This document shows, piece after piece, positions 1,579 to 33,388 of a stretch of 38,727 nucleotides of DNA (its first letter is position 1; every line of letters begins with the position of its first letter). Source of the DNA: a virus. The notes beneath the pieces are model-generated. The model searched no databases. It was not told the DNA's origin and was given only the letters and a program-made list of their open reading frames with translations. Made by a program: the position numbers and the translations under genes. Where the stretch lies: the IMG/VR virus record IMGVR_UViG_3300028417_000001, positions 1-38,727 of that record, one strand, 5' to 3'.

Positions 1579-2262
1579 TTATTCTTCTTCTAATCCCTTT
1601 TTTGCCATGTCCAGCACCTTCCCAAATCCAACAGAGATGCTTTTTACCTTGAACTTCTTTTTCGCCTTAGTAACCATTCTTAAAAATTTTCCTTCACTCT
1701 CATCTCCATCTGCAATAATTACCAAGTCTGATTTTCTTACGTCCTCTTCTGTTATTTCTAGCAACTCCTTTAACAACTCCATATCCTTCTTGTAGAGAAT
1801 CAATGTCACTTTAAAATGCTCTGACATTGGTATTATGCTTCCTTGAAATATATCCCCCACCTCAAGATCCTTAGACCCAATATTGGCAAACTCCTTAAAC
1901 TCAACTGACTCAATTCCCTTAAATAACTTTGCTAAAATAGACTTATCATGATCACCATGAAGAGAGTTAAGACTTAGCTTTATTGCCGTTATCTCGTCCG
2001 ATGATAGGTCATCTTCTTTTGCGTAAATCACGTTGGTTTTCTGATAACCAAGATCTATCATGGCTCTTCTTCTATGATTTCCCCCTATTATCTCAAACCT
2101 CCCATCATCCTTCTTTTTGAAGCAAGTAATAACCGTACTCATCCCGCTTTTATCTATGTTTTGTTTCAGCTTCTTGTAATCCGCCCCAGACATTTTGTTG
2201 GCATTCTCTTGAGACTCATCAACCCTATCAAGATCAACTTCTTTAACTTTCCATTTGCTCAC
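1579..2262 (-). CDS. ParB/sulfiredoxin-domain protein
   Basis: 227 residues, GTG start in a GTGA overlap with the amidoligase stop. Residues 20-80 match the ParB N-terminal (sulfiredoxin-like) domain, with GGNHRRRA at about 60-67 in the place of the nucleotide-binding GxxRxxA box. The rest shows no ParB HTH that I recognise and ends in a Lys/Glu-rich region. In plasmids and chromosomes this domain is a CTP-binding DNA clamp; in phages it also occurs as a nuclease or as a partner of DNA-modification enzymes. There is no ParA nearby, so partition is unlikely. As the last gene of the ligase cassette it may target or regulate that pathway, which is inference. Confidence 0.75.
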   Translation of the reverse strand: MSKWKVKEVDLDRVDESQENANKMSGADYKKLKQNIDKSGMSTVITCFKKKDDGRFEIIGGNHRRRAMIDLGYQKTNVIYAKEDDLSSDEITAIKLSLNSLHGDHDKSILAKLFKGIESVEFKEFANIGSKDLEVGDIFQGSIIPMSEHFKVTLILYKKDMELLKELLEITEEDVRKSDLVIIADGDESEGKFLRMVTKAKKKFKVKSISVGFGKVLDMAKKGLEEE

Positions 2263-4196
2263 TTCTTATACCTCTTTAAAAAATCTCTTTTAAGCTCATC
2301 AAAATCATTGTAAAAACCAATATCCTCAGTTTCATACACCAGACTACCCCCGACTCTCCCGACTTTTTTGAAAGCACCCCTGTACTTCGATGAAACATAC
2401 TTATCCGTATAAACATAAGTCGTGAGTTTATCTATCTTTTCACACAACCCTCTCTCAACTACTCTTCTCACAAAATCTGTTTTTATAGCCAGTAAAACTA
2501 ACTTAGCTCCTCTCCAGTAATTGTGATTAACAATGAAATCTGTCTTAACGATAAAAGCACCCTTGATATCAATATCTATACCAAAGAATCCCAATATCTT
2601 CCCATTCACTCGAACCACAAAACTATATTTCACCTTAAACAGATCACGACCAGACTTGTTTACTTTTTTTATATAAATATCCCTGTAGTAACTTAACGCC
2701 CTTTTATTGCAAGCCTCCACTGTCACCTTATCCCCATAAGACAATTGACCATCATCAATAGTTTCACCACCTACAGGCTTCTCCCCCACCTCGCAATTAA
2801 CGCCACAATGATCGCCCGACCCGTACAAATAGATCCCACCAGAAACTCCTATTTTCTTATACGACCTAAACCACGGAAACCTTGATATAAACTTAATTCT
2901 ACCCCCGTATCTTTTCATCAACCTTCTAAAGTCTGTCACTCTTATTTTATCGACCTCTATTGATGAGTTTTTCAATAGATACATTTCCGAAAGCAATGGC
3001 TTGAATTTCACACCACTTATAAAATACACACCTCCATCAGACCACTCCAAAGCATCTCCAATAGTCCCATTTACAACCCTTTTTTCTCTTATTGCTTTTT
3101 CCAAACTTTCTGAATACTCTCTGTTTTCCTTGTAGAAGCCCTCCTTGCTTCTAACTCTTGCAGTGAGTTCAAGAGCGCACCAATCCTCCCCATTTCTTGC
3201 CAGTAGGCAAAGTATCTCAGATATAAAAAAAGCAAATAATAAAACCAATACTGCCGACTCTTCTTCGTCATTTAAGAAAGCAAGCTCCTCATGATAAACA
3301 GGATCTTCATTCATAGCCCATACCACTGATTGAAGTCTTGCTGACTGAACATACAGCACACCATCTGGTCTTATTAGATCAAGCTTGCCTCTCCCGTCAA
3401 CAAGCACATCATCACTGCCCATTCCTGATATTAAGGACTTTGAAAACACATTAACTCGCTTTCCCGAAAAACCATCCTGCCCACATATTATCGCTGGCTC
3501 TACTGGCTCTGGGACTTTACTCTCCCTCACCCCTAGCAATCTTACAAAATCTTCATAGCTATCAAAATCGTCCTCTCTTATCGCTGATTCTACAAACCTA
3601 TAAGCAAATTTCATATTTTCCATAATACATCTGAAATCACTACTTGCATTAAAACACCTGAATTCAAGAGTCCCGTATTTCTTTAACGATAGAGATGGAG
3701 ATATAACAGGTCTTAAATACCCTTTTTTAGAACTATTTGAAAAACAAGCAACCAGACCCTCAATATCTTCTGATAATCTAACTTCACCCATGATTCCTGC
3801 ATCTATCAGCGGAGAATAAATATCCTCCTTTAGTTGCTCTGGTACTTTCATCGCCTGATAAACATACATTCCTGTTTTATATATATGCTCAACTATTTTC
3901 TTTATTTCCTCAAAACTTAAATCACCTATATAAACATGAGCATCAAAATATAACCCCACTCCTCCCTGTTCATAACGCCCTTTCACGTAATTTCTAATTA
4001 CCCTAAACGAATCCCTTGAAGGCACTAATGGAGGAGTGCAAACCTCAAACCCAATCCCTCCACCACCTTTACTCTTTTTCCCGTTGCTGTTACCAATAGT
4101 CTCGTCTTTATCAACGTAGAACCCTTCTGGCAAGTCCCCCTTCGCTGCATCCGCAAACTCAAGCTCTATCCCAAAAGTTCTATTATTTAATTCCAT
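2259..4196 (-). CDS. GCS-type amidoligase with GNAT-like C-terminal domain
   Basis: 645 residues. The N-terminal ~200 residues carry amidoligase (glutamine-synthetase/GCS fold) hallmarks: FGIELEF at 8-14 with metal-binding Glu, GFEVCTPPL near 50, FDAHVYI at 84-90 and GTLEFR at 175-180. Such enzymes use ATP to join a carboxylate to an amine. Residues about 505-625 look like a GNAT acyltransferase, with a VNGKILGFFGIDID strand pair and a later TDKYVSSKYRGAFKKVG segment. The middle is unassigned. Length is roughly twice that of a plain amidoligase. The start overlaps the ATP-grasp stop as TAATG. With the ATP-grasp and racemase-like genes it probably builds or attaches a small peptide. The amidoligase call is strong; the GNAT domain is tentative. 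Confidence 0.85.
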   Translation of the reverse strand: MELNNRTFGIELEFADAAKGDLPEGFYVDKDETIGNSNGKKSKGGGGIGFEVCTPPLVPSRDSFRVIRNYVKGRYEQGGVGLYFDAHVYIGDLSFEEIKKIVEHIYKTGMYVYQAMKVPEQLKEDIYSPLIDAGIMGEVRLSEDIEGLVACFSNSSKKGYLRPVISPSLSLKKYGTLEFRCFNASSDFRCIMENMKFAYRFVESAIREDDFDSYEDFVRLLGVRESKVPEPVEPAIICGQDGFSGKRVNVFSKSLISGMGSDDVLVDGRGKLDLIRPDGVLYVQSARLQSVVWAMNEDPVYHEELAFLNDEEESAVLVLLFAFFISEILCLLARNGEDWCALELTARVRSKEGFYKENREYSESLEKAIREKRVVNGTIGDALEWSDGGVYFISGVKFKPLLSEMYLLKNSSIEVDKIRVTDFRRLMKRYGGRIKFISRFPWFRSYKKIGVSGGIYLYGSGDHCGVNCEVGEKPVGGETIDDGQLSYGDKVTVEACNKRALSYYRDIYIKKVNKSGRDLFKVKYSFVVRVNGKILGFFGIDIDIKGAFIVKTDFIVNHNYWRGAKLVLLAIKTDFVRRVVERGLCEKIDKLTTYVYTDKYVSSKYRGAFKKVGRVGGSLVYETEDIGFYNDFDELKRDFLKRYKK

Positions 4197-4870
4197 TATC
4201 TACCACCAAAAGTCATACTTAAATACTCAGCGTAGCTAATCCCATTCACAGCACAACAATTATAATTCCAGCCTCTTAAACCTAGCGACCCAAAAGCATT
4301 TACATCAAGCAATTTTCTCCCTCTGAAATCAAACCTAACTCCCCTTCCTTTCCAGCCCATCTTTTGATATAAGAATTTTGCTATGGACTCTTCATCATTC
4401 GCCCTAACATCTTTAAATCTCTCCATATCATTGTCTTTTATTTCTGCCGTACATATACCTCCATCAAATAAAACCTCCATTGATAACGAGGTCAATTTTC
4501 CGTCGACATTAAAAACCAACACTGACACCTCCCTGCCCTCCACCATCTCCTCTAAAATCTCCCTATCATCACCACCTGTCACCTCAACCCCCAGCGAATC
4601 ACGCCCAAAACGTGGTTTTCTAATAATGTTTTTCGGGCAATATTCTGGAAATCTGTCTTTTATCTCTCTTTTATCATTAGCAATGATATAAGGATCAATA
4701 TCTTCCCCTGCCATCCCTATAACACTAATCTTGTCAGACATACAAAAGAAATCACTCGCTATTCCTGCTTTATCAGAATGGATAAACTCAACCTCTCCCC
4801 TAGCTAAATCAACATCATTCATATCCTTTTCAGATACATAATCACTACAATAAATCACCTTGGTTCTCAA
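4196..4870 (-). CDS. ATP-grasp ligase
   Basis: 224 residues, TTG start in a TTGA overlap with the racemase stop. The ATP-grasp signature is visible: NDK at 65-67, ATP-binding Lys in RKPRFGRDSLGV (84-95), VEGREVSVLVF (110-120), and a metal-binding block VRFDFRGRKLLDVNAFGSLG (178-197), where DVN replaces the usual EVN. The protein is short for the fold (about 300 residues in D-Ala-D-Ala ligases), so the N-terminal pre-ATP-grasp region is reduced. The family activates a carboxylate as acyl-phosphate and couples it to an amine or thiol. It is translationally coupled to the amidoligase and racemase-like genes, which suggests successive ligation steps. Confidence 0.8.
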   Translation of the reverse strand: MRTKVIYCSDYVSEKDMNDVDLARGEVEFIHSDKAGIASDFFCMSDKISVIGMAGEDIDPYIIANDKREIKDRFPEYCPKNIIRKPRFGRDSLGVEVTGGDDREILEEMVEGREVSVLVFNVDGKLTSLSMEVLFDGGICTAEIKDNDMERFKDVRANDEESIAKFLYQKMGWKGRGVRFDFRGRKLLDVNAFGSLGLRGWNYNCCAVNGISYAEYLSMTFGGR

Positions 4871-5622
4871 TCTACCACCCTAACCTCAGAGAATAAAACA
4901 CCTCTTGATAATTTTAAAAGAGTGAAATAATCTGGCTTCAATCTAACCACTCCAGCCTTTTTTATACTCTCCCAGTTAGCCATCTCAATCACAGTAAAAT
5001 CCGTCGTCACACACTTAACCCTGTGACAAGTAAAACCACCTATATCAAGAAGTCCTTTTTTTATAACAACACCATCTTGACTTGCCGAATAAACCTTAAA
5101 TTCTATCGTGAACGGATTCCCCATGCCTCTATAATATGAGTGATATGGTTCGCTTGAAAAACCTGTCAATAAAGCCTCTCCCACTCTTATCTCATCACCA
5201 TAAATCTTAGGTAGTTTCAGAACCAAGCTACCCCCAAAAGAAACACGCTTGAAACCTATTTTCTTTAGCTCTTGATCTATGATCATTAGATCAAACTGAG
5301 AAGGTATACCACCCTTACAACAATTAAAATTAACTATTGCTAGGCTTTTATTTTCTACAAACTTGCTCTCTTCTACTGTTACTCCCTCCCTCCTCTCAAA
5401 GGCATCAACTACTGTAATCCCTTTGCATCCGTAAATGTTCACCCAATCATGAGAATCAAAGTCAGTGGTATAAACCCTTTCTCCTTTAAGGCAGTCTCTC
5501 AAAAAAACCCACTTCATCTGACTTTTAACCATAAAAGCCACGTCCACACCACAATCAAGGGCTACTTCCTTTATTTTCAGCATGTTTTTATAGAGTGTCT
5601 TTCTTGAGAATGTGACCAGCAT
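4867..5622 (-). CDS. Fold-type III PLP enzyme, alanine/ornithine racemase-like, compact
   Basis: 251 residues from the ATG at 5622, chosen for its GGAGGGG ribosome-binding site; it overlaps the GNAT gene by 35 bases. The N-terminus (LYKNMLKIKEVALDCGVDVAF, then MVK) fits the first strand and helix of the alanine-racemase barrel, with Lys33 as the expected PLP lysine. The C-terminal half matches the ornithine-racemase type: GGSLVLKLP, IRVGEALLTG, then LLDIGG and a final beta segment. It is about 100 residues shorter than usual, with the middle of the barrel condensed. It may supply a D-amino acid or have lost activity. Family placement is by motif order, so moderately sure. Confidence 0.65.
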   Translation of the reverse strand: MLVTFSRKTLYKNMLKIKEVALDCGVDVAFMVKSQMKWVFLRDCLKGERVYTTDFDSHDWVNIYGCKGITVVDAFERREGVTVEESKFVENKSLAIVNFNCCKGGIPSQFDLMIIDQELKKIGFKRVSFGGSLVLKLPKIYGDEIRVGEALLTGFSSEPYHSYYRGMGNPFTIEFKVYSASQDGVVIKKGLLDIGGFTCHRVKCVTTDFTVIEMANWESIKKAGVVRLKPDYFTLLKLSRGVLFSEVRVVD

Positions 5623-6157
5623 AATTAACCCCTCCATCAGACTTAAATCCAAATTTCTCGAACAGCCTTCTTGCCCTTCTCTCGTCTTCATCAGTGGAGG
5701 TGAGTATATTTGCCTCATACTTCCCTTCTGGCAAAAAATTCATTAAATGACTTCCTAAACCTTTAATCAAAGTACCAATAAATATTATATAACCGCTTTT
5801 CACCAAGCATAAAGCTACTATTCCCCCCTCGCTCTTAATGCAGAAAGACTCCCCGTTAGCAACAATGTCAAACGAACTTGTCACCCACCCAAGATCACAA
5901 GCAACAGCCATAAAACTACTCTTGTCGCTTTCTTTCAATATTTCGCATTCAACTCCCCAGTACCTCATTGCCACCCAGTCTAGGTACTGGCACACTAGCT
6001 CCTTGCTATTGCAAATCATCAGAGATTTTAAGTCTTTCCCCGTATCCTCCTTAAAAAGATTTTGAGTAACTTCATCATCTGCAACCGATAAAGCCATATC
6101 CATAAAAGCCCCTTTCATTGCATTGCCTCCGAAAGGGACTAACTTCATATTATCCAT
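5588..6157 (-). CDS. GNAT-family N-acetyltransferase
   Basis: 189 residues, ATG at 6157 overlapping the DUF488 stop by 8 bases. The C-terminal half is GNAT-like: a hydrophobic strand YIIFIGTLIKGLGSHLMNFL (acetyl-CoA pyrophosphate loop region, with Gly-Leu-Gly) and then a strand followed by RRARRLFEKFGFKSDG, the usual 'F-x-x-x-GF' end of the fold. The N-terminal 90 residues are less clear. It probably transfers an acyl group to an amine, and by position its substrate may be the amino acid or peptide made by the cassette. Confidence 0.7.
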   Translation of the reverse strand: MDNMKLVPFGGNAMKGAFMDMALSVADDEVTQNLFKEDTGKDLKSLMICNSKELVCQYLDWVAMRYWGVECEILKESDKSSFMAVACDLGWVTSSFDIVANGESFCIKSEGGIVALCLVKSGYIIFIGTLIKGLGSHLMNFLPEGKYEANILTSTDEDERRARRLFEKFGFKSDGGVNYAGHILKKDTL

Positions 6158-6560
6158 GACTCACTATTCTCCCTTTTGATCTAACAACCTTTCCTGCTAA
6201 ATGCTCATGGATCTCAATACCAAGCTTTCTCTCTAACCACTCAGCTACTAAATGCCTATGACAAAAAGACGATTGATTGCAATGACACATGAGTATATTT
6301 TCCTCCCATTCTGTAGACTCTATCTCCTTAATTACTTCCTTTGCATCCATCTTTTCAAGTTGTTTATTGAACGCATCTATATAACCTTCATCGTCAATTT
6401 CATCGGCTCTATACGCCTTCAATAAAGCCCATGTTGGCGCAAGCTTCGCCATCTTTACAGGTGTCTTTAAAAATCTAGGATTCCCCACTGCTATAGATAT
6501 AAAGTTCAACCCCTTGTCTTTTCCCGCCTGATAAAAATATCCCGTCTTAACTATGCTCAT
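6150..6560 (-). CDS. DUF488-family protein
   Basis: 136 residues. The C-terminal motif MCHCNQSSFCHRHLVAEWLE (about 92-111) is the DUF488 signature, with the CHRH cluster characteristic of the family. Family members are about 120-150 residues; the biochemical role is unsettled, and nucleic-acid or metal binding has been suggested from the motif. It is the first gene after the promoter at 6593-6622 and so leads the modification cassette. Confidence 0.8.
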   Translation of the reverse strand: MSIVKTGYFYQAGKDKGLNFISIAVGNPRFLKTPVKMAKLAPTWALLKAYRADEIDDEGYIDAFNKQLEKMDAKEVIKEIESTEWEENILMCHCNQSSFCHRHLVAEWLERKLGIEIHEHLAGKVVRSKGRIVSHG

Positions 6561-6592: not shown

Positions 6593-6622
6593 ACTATACT
6601 TTTTTTTGTTTGTTGCTGTCAC
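6593..6622 (-). promoter_or_regulatory. Early-type sigma70 promoter driving the ligase cassette
   Basis: Minus strand: -35 GTGACA (6617-6622), 18-bp spacer with CAACAAAC, -10 TATAGT (6593-6598). The TGA stop of the methyltransferase gene is part of the -35 box. The first gene downstream is the DUF488 gene at 6560. Confidence 0.7.
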
Positions 6623-7191
6623 CCGTATTTACCTATTGTGATTATTTTTGTTACAGCTTTTGTCAGGTCAAACGTCCCACCCTCTAAAACCTCCACTTCA
6701 TACCCTCTCTTAAAAGTCACAGGAACTATCGCAACTATCTCCCCATCTTCACTCAGAACCTCTTGAGCCTTCCGTATATGCCTTTCCGCATTTCCTCTGG
6801 AGAAGGGGGGATTCATTATAATTCTGTCAAACTCCCTGCCTTTAAAATCCATGAAATCTTGCCTTATAACCTCAATATCATGCTTGTTTCTTTTAAGCAG
6901 CCCTATATTTCTCTCTATGCCCGTTATTAGCCCATTATCATGGTCTTGCATCAATAAAGCCTCGATCAGTCTTCCAGTGCCAAATGATGGCTCTAAAACC
7001 GTATGAAAAACATCTAGGTTTAGATAGTCAACCATTCGCTCTGCAATTTCCAGTGGAGTAATATGGCACTCTGTAGACTTGTCAACCGCAATAAACTCTA
7101 TTTCTTTTATCTCTGGCAGTAAAACACGAGGCTTAATAATGGGTACTACGTGCGCCTGTGTTTTACCGTAAAAGTCTGACATATCAATCAT
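6619..7191 (-). CDS. DNA N6-adenine methyltransferase
   Basis: 190 residues. The SAM-binding motif EPSFGTGRLIEALL (67-80) and catalytic motif IIMNPPF (124-130) are both intact, in the order of gamma-type adenine methyltransferases. There is no obvious separate target-recognition domain, as expected for short phage enzymes. It overlaps the DUF3560 gene by ATGA. Probable role: methylation of phage DNA, as protection or to prepare it for further modification. No restriction endonuclease is next to it, so it is an orphan enzyme. Confidence 0.85.
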   Translation of the reverse strand: MIDMSDFYGKTQAHVVPIIKPRVLLPEIKEIEFIAVDKSTECHITPLEIAERMVDYLNLDVFHTVLEPSFGTGRLIEALLMQDHDNGLITGIERNIGLLKRNKHDIEVIRQDFMDFKGREFDRIIMNPPFSRGNAERHIRKAQEVLSEDGEIVAIVPVTFKRGYEVEVLEGGTFDLTKAVTKIITIGKYG

Positions 7192-8684
7192 TCTTCTGCC
7201 TTTTTAAAGGCATCTATTGAGTCTCTCAAATCAAGGTCATCAGGAGCTTCATGCTCTTTGCTGTCTGTCTGGAATGCGATAACCCATGGGAAACTATGAC
7301 CAAATTTATTCTCTGAGTTTTGACCTTTGCATATTCTAAAACGGTATTTATTATCAATACTGAAACTAGTCCCTCGATAATCATGGTACACCTCTTGAAA
7401 CTCCGCTTTAGTCATTGCCACAACTTCCATTATTTTCGTCGTGCCGTAGTTAGCTTTTAACTCCATGAACTTACCAACCTTATTAATATTAAGAATAGGT
7501 ACTGGCTTTGGCTTTGGCTTTGGTGCTGGTACGGTGTAGCCTAATTCGTGCATTTTTTCGCACCATTCAGCTTGTGAGTATTCTAAGCTGTCACCCTCTC
7601 CAAAATGCAAAGGTACATCAGAATTTGATAATTTAACGCTTATCATGGTAGTTTTTTTATCTAGCTTTAATTTTATTTCTTTGGGTGAAGCTGGAAAGCC
7701 GTGTTTAACTAAAAAGCGTTTTAATATTGCGTTTGTTAAGGCCGAAGGGCTGAACTTTTCAACTTCTGGCAATAATGAGTTTTCGTAAGAAAGTCTATTA
7801 AGCAGGTGCATAATTGAACGCTGTTTATAATCATTAAAATTTACGTGCCTGTGCCAATTTCCTACCGCTATTTCAAGGGCTATCTCGTGCGATAAATTAC
7901 CTTTTCTTAGTTCATCGGCAATCAGTCCCCATCTGATAAATTCCTCTACATGAGCCACAAAATTAGTGCGTTCCTCGTTATCGCCCCAACGGCTTAAATA
8001 GGGTTCATCATCTGAATTATCAATAATTGAATAGCCACGCTCTAGGGTTTTCTTATCGCTTGTAATACTACGCTGTAAGTCTCTAAGCTCTTTTAAAAGT
8101 GTTTCAATGCGTCTGGTTCTTACCCCTGCATCTGCTTTCATGTTTGCATAATGCGCCACACCGCCCACCTTCCACGACCAATAATCTGCACGTCTGCCAT
8201 GATCTAAACTATTACGCATCGCTGTATCTGCTCTTTTTTGATCTCTTCTAGCGCTTTTTTCTGAATGATGACCAATTAGTATGGGCTGACCTTGTGCGAA
8301 CCGCTCCGAGTATCGAGAAGCAGAACGAGAGTAAGCATTCATATCTCTAACACGGTTATTATAATATCCCTCTAAACGCTCCGCTTTTATCTCTGCTCTT
8401 TCTGCCAATGTTGTACCCTCTGGCTGTATTTCTTCATCATCAGGCAGTAAAAATAAGCATAAATCCTCTCGTGATATTCTATGAGCAAATACGAAAAGCT
8501 CTTGCTTTGACGCATACCTCATCCCTATAGATCTAAAATACAACCACAATTCCTTGTCAAATCTGAAATTTGGGTACAGTCTCAACTTATTATCTTCTGG
8601 CGAATACGTCACCTCTGAAAATATAGTTCTTAGATATTCCTTGTCAGGCTCTACCTTCAAAAGATCAGATATTAAGTTGTTCAT
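7188..8684 (-). CDS. DUF3560 domain protein
   Basis: 498 residues. The DUF3560 block lies at about 90-170: RAEIKAERLEGYYNNRVRD, then FAQGQPILIGHHSEKSARRD and a following helix with WSWKVGG. This domain is common in plasmid and phage accessory regions and its function is unknown. The remainder includes a long helical stretch and a short KPKPKPKPVP linker near 390. It is the first gene after the promoter at 8714-8743 and is coupled to the methyltransferase by ATGA, so the two may work together. Confidence 0.8.
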   Translation of the reverse strand: MNNLISDLLKVEPDKEYLRTIFSEVTYSPEDNKLRLYPNFRFDKELWLYFRSIGMRYASKQELFVFAHRISREDLCLFLLPDDEEIQPEGTTLAERAEIKAERLEGYYNNRVRDMNAYSRSASRYSERFAQGQPILIGHHSEKSARRDQKRADTAMRNSLDHGRRADYWSWKVGGVAHYANMKADAGVRTRRIETLLKELRDLQRSITSDKKTLERGYSIIDNSDDEPYLSRWGDNEERTNFVAHVEEFIRWGLIADELRKGNLSHEIALEIAVGNWHRHVNFNDYKQRSIMHLLNRLSYENSLLPEVEKFSPSALTNAILKRFLVKHGFPASPKEIKLKLDKKTTMISVKLSNSDVPLHFGEGDSLEYSQAEWCEKMHELGYTVPAPKPKPKPVPILNINKVGKFMELKANYGTTKIMEVVAMTKAEFQEVYHDYRGTSFSIDNKYRFRICKGQNSENKFGHSFPWVIAFQTDSKEHEAPDDLDLRDSIDAFKKAEE

Positions 8685-32023: not shown

Positions 32024-33388
32024 TTACCCTCTCAATATTTTTGGTCTTTTCTTCACTACTATTGGTTCTTTCCAGTCAGTAAGCTCTTCTATGCAATCTG
32101 ATGTTGTATCAACCATATCGTCATGCGGATGCACTGGGAAAGACTCATGCTCTTTTATGTATTCTTCATTCCACTTTCCCCTAAGTAGTTTTATATTTCC
32201 TATGCCAGCCTGTGCGCTTGCTGGTGTCGCTCTAACTTCCTTGTTTCCAGTAACAGGTAGTATCTTGACTTTATACCCTCTCAGCATTTTAGCATAGTTA
32301 TGAGCCACCACCTTTCCTGCGCTACCCGCATCTTGTGGCATCCTACAAAGAACATCTTTACCGTCTTGAGAGGTCACTGACTTCAATAACTTTTCAACCC
32401 CAGAAGGATTCATTCTCTCCCTGACAAGATCAGTAACAATAAACTCTCCACTTGCGGTCACTCCCATTTTCTGCCCCACCGTCCAATCTGGATCTGGGTT
32501 TCTCTCACTTGGCTCAGTGCCAGCAAAGTCCCAGCACCTAACCTCATGTTTTAAAGGTGGTACAGCATCAATTATCTCAAAATCTTCACGCTTGAAGTAA
32601 TCACCAACCCCTGCTCTCACATCCCAGTTTCCGTATAGCAACCTTTCTCTGTCTACACGCTGCAAAGCCTCTAGGTTGGACAGATAATCAGGATCATTCT
32701 CCATAAGAATCTTATTATCATGTATATCAGATCTGATGAAAGTAAAACTTTTAGGTCTAGCCTTGTCCCCGAATTTCTTAATTGCGTCGATCTTCCTGTC
32801 AAACCAAAATATCTCATCGTTCTGGTTAATAAACCATCGAACCACTCCGCTTCTCTCTTCTATCGCTACCCCGTCATCACCAATATACCAATCTATGAAT
32901 TCACGAACCCAACTATCAGGATCTGGATTAGTGGTTGCCCTAACATAAGGTCTTACACCGCAATCCGTTCTGCTTCTTGAAAGCATATAGAAAAACTGAA
33001 CCTTGCTAAAATGCGTAAGCTCATCAAAACCAATAAAGGGTATTTGCGTTCCCTGCCAATCCTTTACATCCTCATCTCTTGCTAGGTACGAAAAGTCAAT
33101 CTTTGAGCCATACTTATCCCAGTACCAAATCAAATTACCCTTTACACCCCTACCACCAATTGCTGAGAATATCTTTGAGGATGTATCCCATAATGCACCT
33201 TCTTTTTCTATCTGCTTTAATGACCTCCTGAATATCACCCCTCCGAAGCCACGAACCATTATATTTCTTGAAGCCTCCAGAAGAAGAGCATAGGTTTTTC
33301 CTCCTCCAGCACTTCCACCGTATAACGCAATATCAGCACTCGTACTGATAAACTCAAACTGCTTACCTTCTTGCGGTGTTATTATCAC
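32024..33388 (-). CDS. terL: Terminase large subunit
   Basis: 454 residues, GTG start in a GTGA overlap with a tiny upstream gene. ATPase motifs: Walker A GGSAGGGKT (24-32), Walker B FIGFDELTHF (118-127), coupling motif ATTNPD (151-156). Nuclease motifs: RCWDFAG (Asp287), PQDAGSAGK (Asp353 region) and HPHDDMVDTTSD (422-431). It pumps DNA into the procapsid and cuts it. The ends it makes cannot be read from the protein. Confidence 0.95.
   Translation of the reverse strand: MIITPQEGKQFEFISTSADIALYGGSAGGGKTYALLLEASRNIMVRGFGGVIFRRSLKQIEKEGALWDTSSKIFSAIGGRGVKGNLIWYWDKYGSKIDFSYLARDEDVKDWQGTQIPFIGFDELTHFSKVQFFYMLSRSRTDCGVRPYVRATTNPDPDSWVREFIDWYIGDDGVAIEERSGVVRWFINQNDEIFWFDRKIDAIKKFGDKARPKSFTFIRSDIHDNKILMENDPDYLSNLEALQRVDRERLLYGNWDVRAGVGDYFKREDFEIIDAVPPLKHEVRCWDFAGTEPSERNPDPDWTVGQKMGVTASGEFIVTDLVRERMNPSGVEKLLKSVTSQDGKDVLCRMPQDAGSAGKVVAHNYAKMLRGYKVKILPVTGNKEVRATPASAQAGIGNIKLLRGKWNEEYIKEHESFPVHPHDDMVDTTSDCIEELTDWKEPIVVKKRPKILRG

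Follow-up and report, generated by a model that had tools for sequence, protein, structure and literature searches.

A six-gene cassette on one strand of a viral genome

We analysed a stretch of viral DNA of 38,727 nucleotides (IMG/VR virus record IMGVR_UViG_3300028417_000001, positions 1 to 38,727; the window), focusing on six genes at 1579-6560 that the original prediction had read as a candidate peptide-ligation pathway. This cassette is real and all of its domain calls are confirmed, two of them with the help of relatives or a structure model. The genes occupy the minus strand in the predicted order, DUF488, GNAT, pyridoxal phosphate (PLP) enzyme, ATP-grasp ligase, amidoligase-GNAT fusion and ParB, and every adjacent pair overlaps. 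The features are, by position:

6150-6560, minus strand: DUF488-N3a protein, first gene of the cassette (PF22751)
5588-6157, minus strand: GNAT acetyltransferase (PF13508)
4867-5718, minus strand: miniature fold-III PLP enzyme (structure model and relatives; likely start 5622)
4196-4870, minus strand: short ATP-grasp ligase, D-Ala-D-Ala-ligase-like (PF02655 and relatives)
2259-4196, minus strand: Amidoligase_2 / DAM-like-phage2 / GNAT-phage-like fusion, 645 residues
3522-4196, minus strand: amidoligase domain of the fusion, glutamate-cysteine-ligase fold (PF12224)
2787-3521, minus strand: middle domain of the fusion, DAM-like-phage2 type (PF22556 through relatives)
2361-2732, minus strand: GNAT-phage-like domain of the fusion (PF22559)
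1579-2262, minus strand: ParB/Srx-fold protein, last gene of the cassette (phrog_7405), with a 4-base overlap with the preceding gene

Read from its first ATG (5718), the PLP gene overlaps the GNAT gene by 131 bases, and translation more likely begins at the ATG at 5622. A single early promoter had also been claimed. The 58-base gap upstream of the cassette does contain a 10/12 match to a sigma-70-like promoter, but such matches are no commoner in the upstream region than in shuffled DNA (19 versus a mean of 22), and beyond that match the claim has no support.

The cassette is conserved in dozens of viruses and prophages

Single-sequence scans of viral contigs with the amidoligase, PLP and ATP-grasp proteins found nothing, nor did tblastn searches of phages bring up any close relative; relatives surfaced only with a profile of the GNAT domain, seeded from Mycobacterium, Gordonia and Faecalibacterium phages. 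This fused-GNAT search recovered 43 viral loci, and scans with the whole fusion added bacterial contigs (Bacteroidales, Prevotella, Gastranaerophilales) and further viral loci; L110 lies in a candidate prophage of Prevotella vespertina A2879. Dozens of further uncultured viruses and prophages carry the cassette in conserved form. The GNAT domain and a downstream ParB gene are common to two architectures: DAM-like-phage1 + GNAT (PF22555 + PF22559; the sister form) and Amidoligase_2 + DAM-like-phage2 + GNAT (the amidoligase form).

Neighbours were counted only where a locus had over 2.5 kb of sequence on each side. The 43 rows labelled AL (amidoligase) include three free-standing amidoligases without a GNAT domain (L056, L057 and L115), which were set aside to leave 40; the window itself, with 2259 bases downstream, lies outside the counts, though its layout is the same. 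We find DUF488 upstream of the fusion at 40/40 amidoligase-type loci and ParB downstream at 40/40, with corresponding values of 21/26 and 25/26 for the sister form. The neighbourhood search proposed earlier therefore reveals a gene set that travels as a unit. Since many of the loci are related (the fusions form 44 groups at 90% identity and 12 at 50%), p-values computed from them overstate the independent evidence. The closest relative found, L118, is 40% identical in the fusion and has the order DUF488, PLP, fusion, ATP-grasp, ParB, so that the ATP-grasp gene adjoins the fusion there too, on the opposite side relative to the window.

Two further neighbourhoods bear on these families. An S-adenosylmethionine (AdoMet) synthetase gene lies near DAM-like-1 cassettes at L059 (5969-7147) and L114 (7368-8432), which fits an AdoMet-using sister system. 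At L115 (4863-5975; Vibrio phage 2.275.O), a related amidoligase stands beside 7-cyano-7-deazaguanine reductase, queuosine and GTP cyclohydrolase genes, a neighbourhood that suggests an independent link between the amidoligase family and DNA modification.

The fusion joins an amidoligase to a methylase-like domain without catalytic motifs

The N-terminal domain of the fusion is an amidoligase: it matches Amidoligase_2 (PF12224) at E = 6e-7 (30.1 bits against a cut-off of 22), and its acidic, histidine and arginine active-site residues are conserved, with G9, E11, E13, E51, H87, E178 and R180 invariant across relatives. A fold search with this domain, modelled with a per-residue confidence (pLDDT) mostly of 75-90 over residues 1-230, matches YbdK, GshA and PafA. 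The GNAT-phage-like domain scores above the cut-off (PF22559, E = 2e-15) and is homologous to the GNAT domain of DAM-like-1 proteins (profile-profile probability 99.9, E = 4.5e-36). Both domains had been called correctly, but a DNA-methylase-like domain between them had been overlooked.

This middle domain has no direct Pfam match in the window. PF22556 (DAM-like-phage2) is found mid-protein in relatives at L075 (3e-23), L084 and L104 (3e-26), and a profile of relatives built without the window detects the window's copy at E = 2e-8 over residues 301-461. DAM-like-2 is collinear with DAM-like-1 (hhalign probability 88, E = 3e-6). CSGNF and PP motifs, at sites where AdoMet binding and catalysis would be expected, are nearly invariant in DAM-like-1 and absent from DAM-like-2, which therefore lacks the marks of an active AdoMet-dependent DNA methyltransferase. 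From this motif pattern, the amidoligase seems to have joined a protein whose methylase-like part degenerated into a scaffold.

The remaining cassette proteins

The ATP-grasp protein of the window matches PF02655 only below the cut-off (E = 0.004), and the call is confirmed through relatives alone. It is 45% identical to that of L118, and K85, E107, K145, R179, D181 and N191 are invariant when these two are aligned with six more relatives (eight sequences); relatives match Dala_Dala_lig_C at up to 6e-22. The ATP-binding lysine and metal-binding D/E-x-N point to an ATP-grasp enzyme of the D-Ala-D-Ala-ligase type. A first impression that this gene was unique to the window was overturned by relatives found in later searches. 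The cassette does, then, carry two unrelated amide-forming ligases as predicted, the amidoligase recognised by Pfam and the ATP-grasp enzyme via relatives. The original prediction was to be abandoned if profile searches gave no amidoligase or ATP-grasp match or if homologues had lost the catalytic residues; because those residues are conserved across relatives, it survives this sequence part of its own test.

The PLP protein has no direct Pfam match, and phmmer searches of solved structures with it and with the ATP-grasp protein return chance matches only. Modelled with seven relatives (pLDDT 86, predicted TM-score 0.85), it resembles D-serine dehydratase (Z 16) and alanine racemase (Z 15.7) over about 245 residues. 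K35, GGS and R-x-GE are invariant in the alignment; a weak profile match (E = 1.4) pairs K35 with the lysine of alanine racemase, and the relative in L075 matches Ala_racemase_N at 4e-5. With its barrel and beta domain and a Schiff-base lysine near the N terminus, the protein belongs to the fold-III PLP enzymes. By alignment only (A4), no tyrosine of the C-terminal domain can be assigned as the second catalytic base of a racemase. Zn-dependent D-serine dehydratase activity was considered and dropped, as the C-terminal domain has no EHG-like motif (alignment A4, by eye). The label "racemase-like" is borne out for the fold (model Z about 16), with the reaction itself only putative; in relatives, opine or saccharopine-type dehydrogenases take this role.

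The short GNAT protein also falls below the cut-off (PF13508, E = 0.001), and its homologues hold the same position in PLP-type cassettes, where a GNAT gene recurs. DUF488-N3a scores above its cut-off (PF22751, E = 9e-16, 58.7 bits against a cut-off of 27), and 14/14 aligned relatives have the motif C-x(6-9)-[FW]CHR. The last protein matches phrog_7405 (E = 2e-43) and TIGR00180 (2e-6), with ParB_N below the cut-off; it aligns over nearly its full length with ParB proteins encoded downstream of DAM-like-GNAT genes and retains the G-[NH]-HR motif.

A single slot holds one of three amino-acid-tailoring enzymes

Of the 40 amidoligase cassettes, we find that 16 carry a fold-III PLP enzyme, 14 an opine dehydrogenase and 8 a saccharopine-type dehydrogenase, with none found in 2; no cassette has more than one type, and the type is uniform inside each of the 12 clusters formed at 50% identity. 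The sister form has no such enzyme (0/26; Fisher p = 2e-16 against the amidoligase form, over related loci that are not independent). Among solved structures, the opine dehydrogenases match carboxyethyl-norvaline dehydrogenase (2e-16), and the saccharopine-type enzymes match the lysine-ketoglutarate reductase part of aminoadipic semialdehyde synthase (AASS; 1e-38). An ATP-grasp gene accompanies the opine dehydrogenase in 14/14 cassettes; it is absent from those of the saccharopine type and present in part of those with a PLP enzyme, the window included.

At L150, one of the two exceptions, a DUF4417 protein (7274-7999) sits in the tailoring slot and is a candidate fourth enzyme. Part of the PLP-type cassettes also encode a cysteine-rich protein of the CxxCxxCC type (L072, 3775-4197; L108, 12709-13104, PF03692; L084, 6975-7772), sometimes fused to a GNAT domain and not found in the window. 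A literature search, which did not include the source paper of these Pfam families, found no description of the mutually exclusive tailoring slot or of its restriction to the amidoligase form; the association of DAM-like, GNAT and DUF488 proteins has already been seen by curators, since the component families are named in Pfam.

A proposed route to amino-acid-modified DNA

We think it probable, on balance, that the cassette is a phage DNA hypermodification system, in which a non-standard amino acid is made and coupled to DNA through an ATP-driven amide bond, protecting the phage DNA. We propose that a purpose-made amino acid is attached to a DNA base through an amide, because the dehydrogenases and PLP enzymes act on amino acids, both ligases form amides, and the fusion and ParB tie the system to DNA. 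The PLP enzyme, or in relatives the opine or saccharopine-type dehydrogenase, would produce the non-standard amino acid, which the GNAT enzyme may acylate and the ATP-grasp ligase would couple to a second amino acid. The amidoligase domain would convert a carboxylate to an acyl phosphate and then form an amide bond with the amine of a DNA base, held within reach by the decayed methylase-like domain. We prefer this direction, from amino-acid carboxylate to base amine, over the reverse, because no base-carboxylating enzyme is seen in the cassette. The fused GNAT domain would perform a transfer or capping step, DUF488 a thiol-dependent step, and ParB, a DNA-associated nucleoside triphosphate-binding partner, would load or guide the complex. 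The product would shield phage DNA from restriction or other nucleases, its purpose most likely being to hide that DNA from bacterial defences.

The original prediction listed peptidoglycan, lipopolysaccharide, a protein or a modified DNA base as targets, and these narrow to DNA, the others now being less likely, because of the DAM-like fusion, the invariant ParB gene and the sister form with its methylase-like motifs. Tagging of a protein (host RNA polymerase or a phage protein) or of cell-wall amines with amino acids or peptides, for instance to exclude other phages, is unlikely in our view, even though PafA, the Pup ligase, is among the fold matches of the amidoligase, pairs of ATP-grasp and GNAT genes have been proposed as protein modifiers (PMC4431377), and the amidoligases of phiEco32-like phages are proposed to alter the cell surface (PMC11318856). 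Such an enzyme would not be expected to be fused to a DNA-methylase-like domain with a strict ParB partner, and secreted or membrane components do not recur in the cassette. It also strikes us as improbable that the cassette produces a soluble metabolite derived from amino acids to block a host defence or signal, its DNA-linked domains serving as mere sensors, even though opine and saccharopine dehydrogenases do yield free metabolites and DUF488-related domains have links to nucleotide or nicotinamide adenine dinucleotide (NAD) chemistry. One of the DUF488 relatives, DUF4326, is tied to nucleotide or NAD chemistry in the literature (PMC7824862). The ligase, however, is fused to a methylase-like domain rather than free, and no transporter or effector is conserved. 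It is highly improbable that DNA ends, the backbone or RNA are the target instead of a base; the DUF488 clade is reportedly predicted to act in DNA-end processing, but DAM-like ancestry points to a base and nothing end-specific is conserved.

Several observations weigh against hypermodification of DNA bases. Because its catalytic motifs are lost, the methylase-like domain would speak for ancestry and perhaps DNA binding, not for current base chemistry, and the window's copy is the most divergent of all, with a poor model (pLDDT mostly 28-50). ParB-fold proteins have other roles. The amidoligase form was found in 0 of 50,697 phage records and only in metagenomic viruses and bacterial contigs, and the product, substrate and protective role proposed for the cassette are predictions. 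More tentatively, the hypermodification proposed here may represent a widespread class whose adduct would be an amino acid made for the purpose (a D- or altered amino acid, an opine or a saccharopine-like compound), picked by the swappable enzyme and attached by an amidoligase of the glutamate-cysteine-ligase fold that is fused to a repurposed, decayed DNA-methylase domain.

Genes around the cassette in the window

Directly adjoining the cassette upstream (6619-8684) are an NPPF DNA methyltransferase gene and a gene for a DUF3560 protein, the former a possible accessory:

6619-7191, minus strand: N6-adenine-type DNA methyltransferase with NPPF motif (phrog_6263, E = 2e-23; MTS, 5e-8)

A methyltransferase-DUF4942 gene related to it lies at an equal upstream distance in L104 only. 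PADLOC detects no defence system in the cassette; its only matches are generic methyltransferases and, for DUF488, a candidate family. The large terminase (32024-33388) is closest (44-46%) to those of Rhizobium phages RHph_N28_2 and RHph_TM3_3_3, a human gut phage and Methanoculleus viruses. In the phage collection, the window's phage has no near relative.

Comparison with known systems

The DAM-like-phage1 + GNAT-phage-like + ParB loci (PF22555, PF22559) in the cultured phages Megabear (Mycobacterium), Clawz and Jollymon (Gordonia) and FP_Brigit (Faecalibacterium) share with the cassette a homologous GNAT domain, a homologous ParB gene directly downstream and, usually, DUF488 upstream. Unlike the window, they lack an amidoligase, a tailoring enzyme and an ATP-grasp gene, and their methylase-like motifs are intact.

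Amide-based hypermodification of phage DNA is already known, by unrelated enzymes: CmoA, CmoX and CmoY of Synechococcus phage S-B43 form carboxymethylcytosine-glycine by ATP-dependent amide ligation on phage DNA, and ParB genes are often found near CmoX (PMC12783734). The cassette resembles them in its proposed ATP-dependent amino-acid amide ligation and its nearby ParB gene. CmoY, however, is an AMP-forming ligase of the asparagine-synthetase type, and CmoX is a C5-cytosine enzyme, whereas here a glutamate-cysteine-ligase fold is joined to a decayed DAM-like domain and accompanied by tailoring enzymes; no CmoX/CmoY-type domain occurs among the scanned cassette proteins and upstream neighbours, placing the cassette outside that family. 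A ParB-like ATPase, DpdB, also serves in base insertion (PMC12839542).

The original prediction likened the cassette to phiEco32-like phages. An Amidoligase_2 and an ATP-grasp gene are indeed shared with phiEco32/LUZ24-like clusters (Iyer et al. 2009, as cited in PMC11318856; PMC3890496), but the likeness is loose: such clusters carry a glutamine amidotransferase, a PF14395 COOH-NH2 ligase and GGCT (PMC3890496), none seen among the scanned cassette proteins, and the amidoligase of the cassette forms one protein with DNA-linked domains. A phiEco32-like envelope-modifying cluster was considered and dropped. Mom of phage Mu acts without ligases. Mom and Mom-like proteins are, as here, GNAT-fold enzymes in a phage DNA modification setting (PMC7824862). 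Our fold search gave no match to Mom, which is uninformative either way.

Known bulky adducts of phage DNA are mostly built on hydroxymethyl or carboxymethyl handles. The cassette suggests another route, in which viruses would build special amino acids, opines included, and hang them on DNA, with a single slot swapping the adduct chemistry between lineages. It offers candidate substrates, lysine with 2-oxoglutarate and pairs of an amino acid with a 2-oxoacid, for a phage gene family that had been unexplained, and may provide new ligases for DNA labelling.

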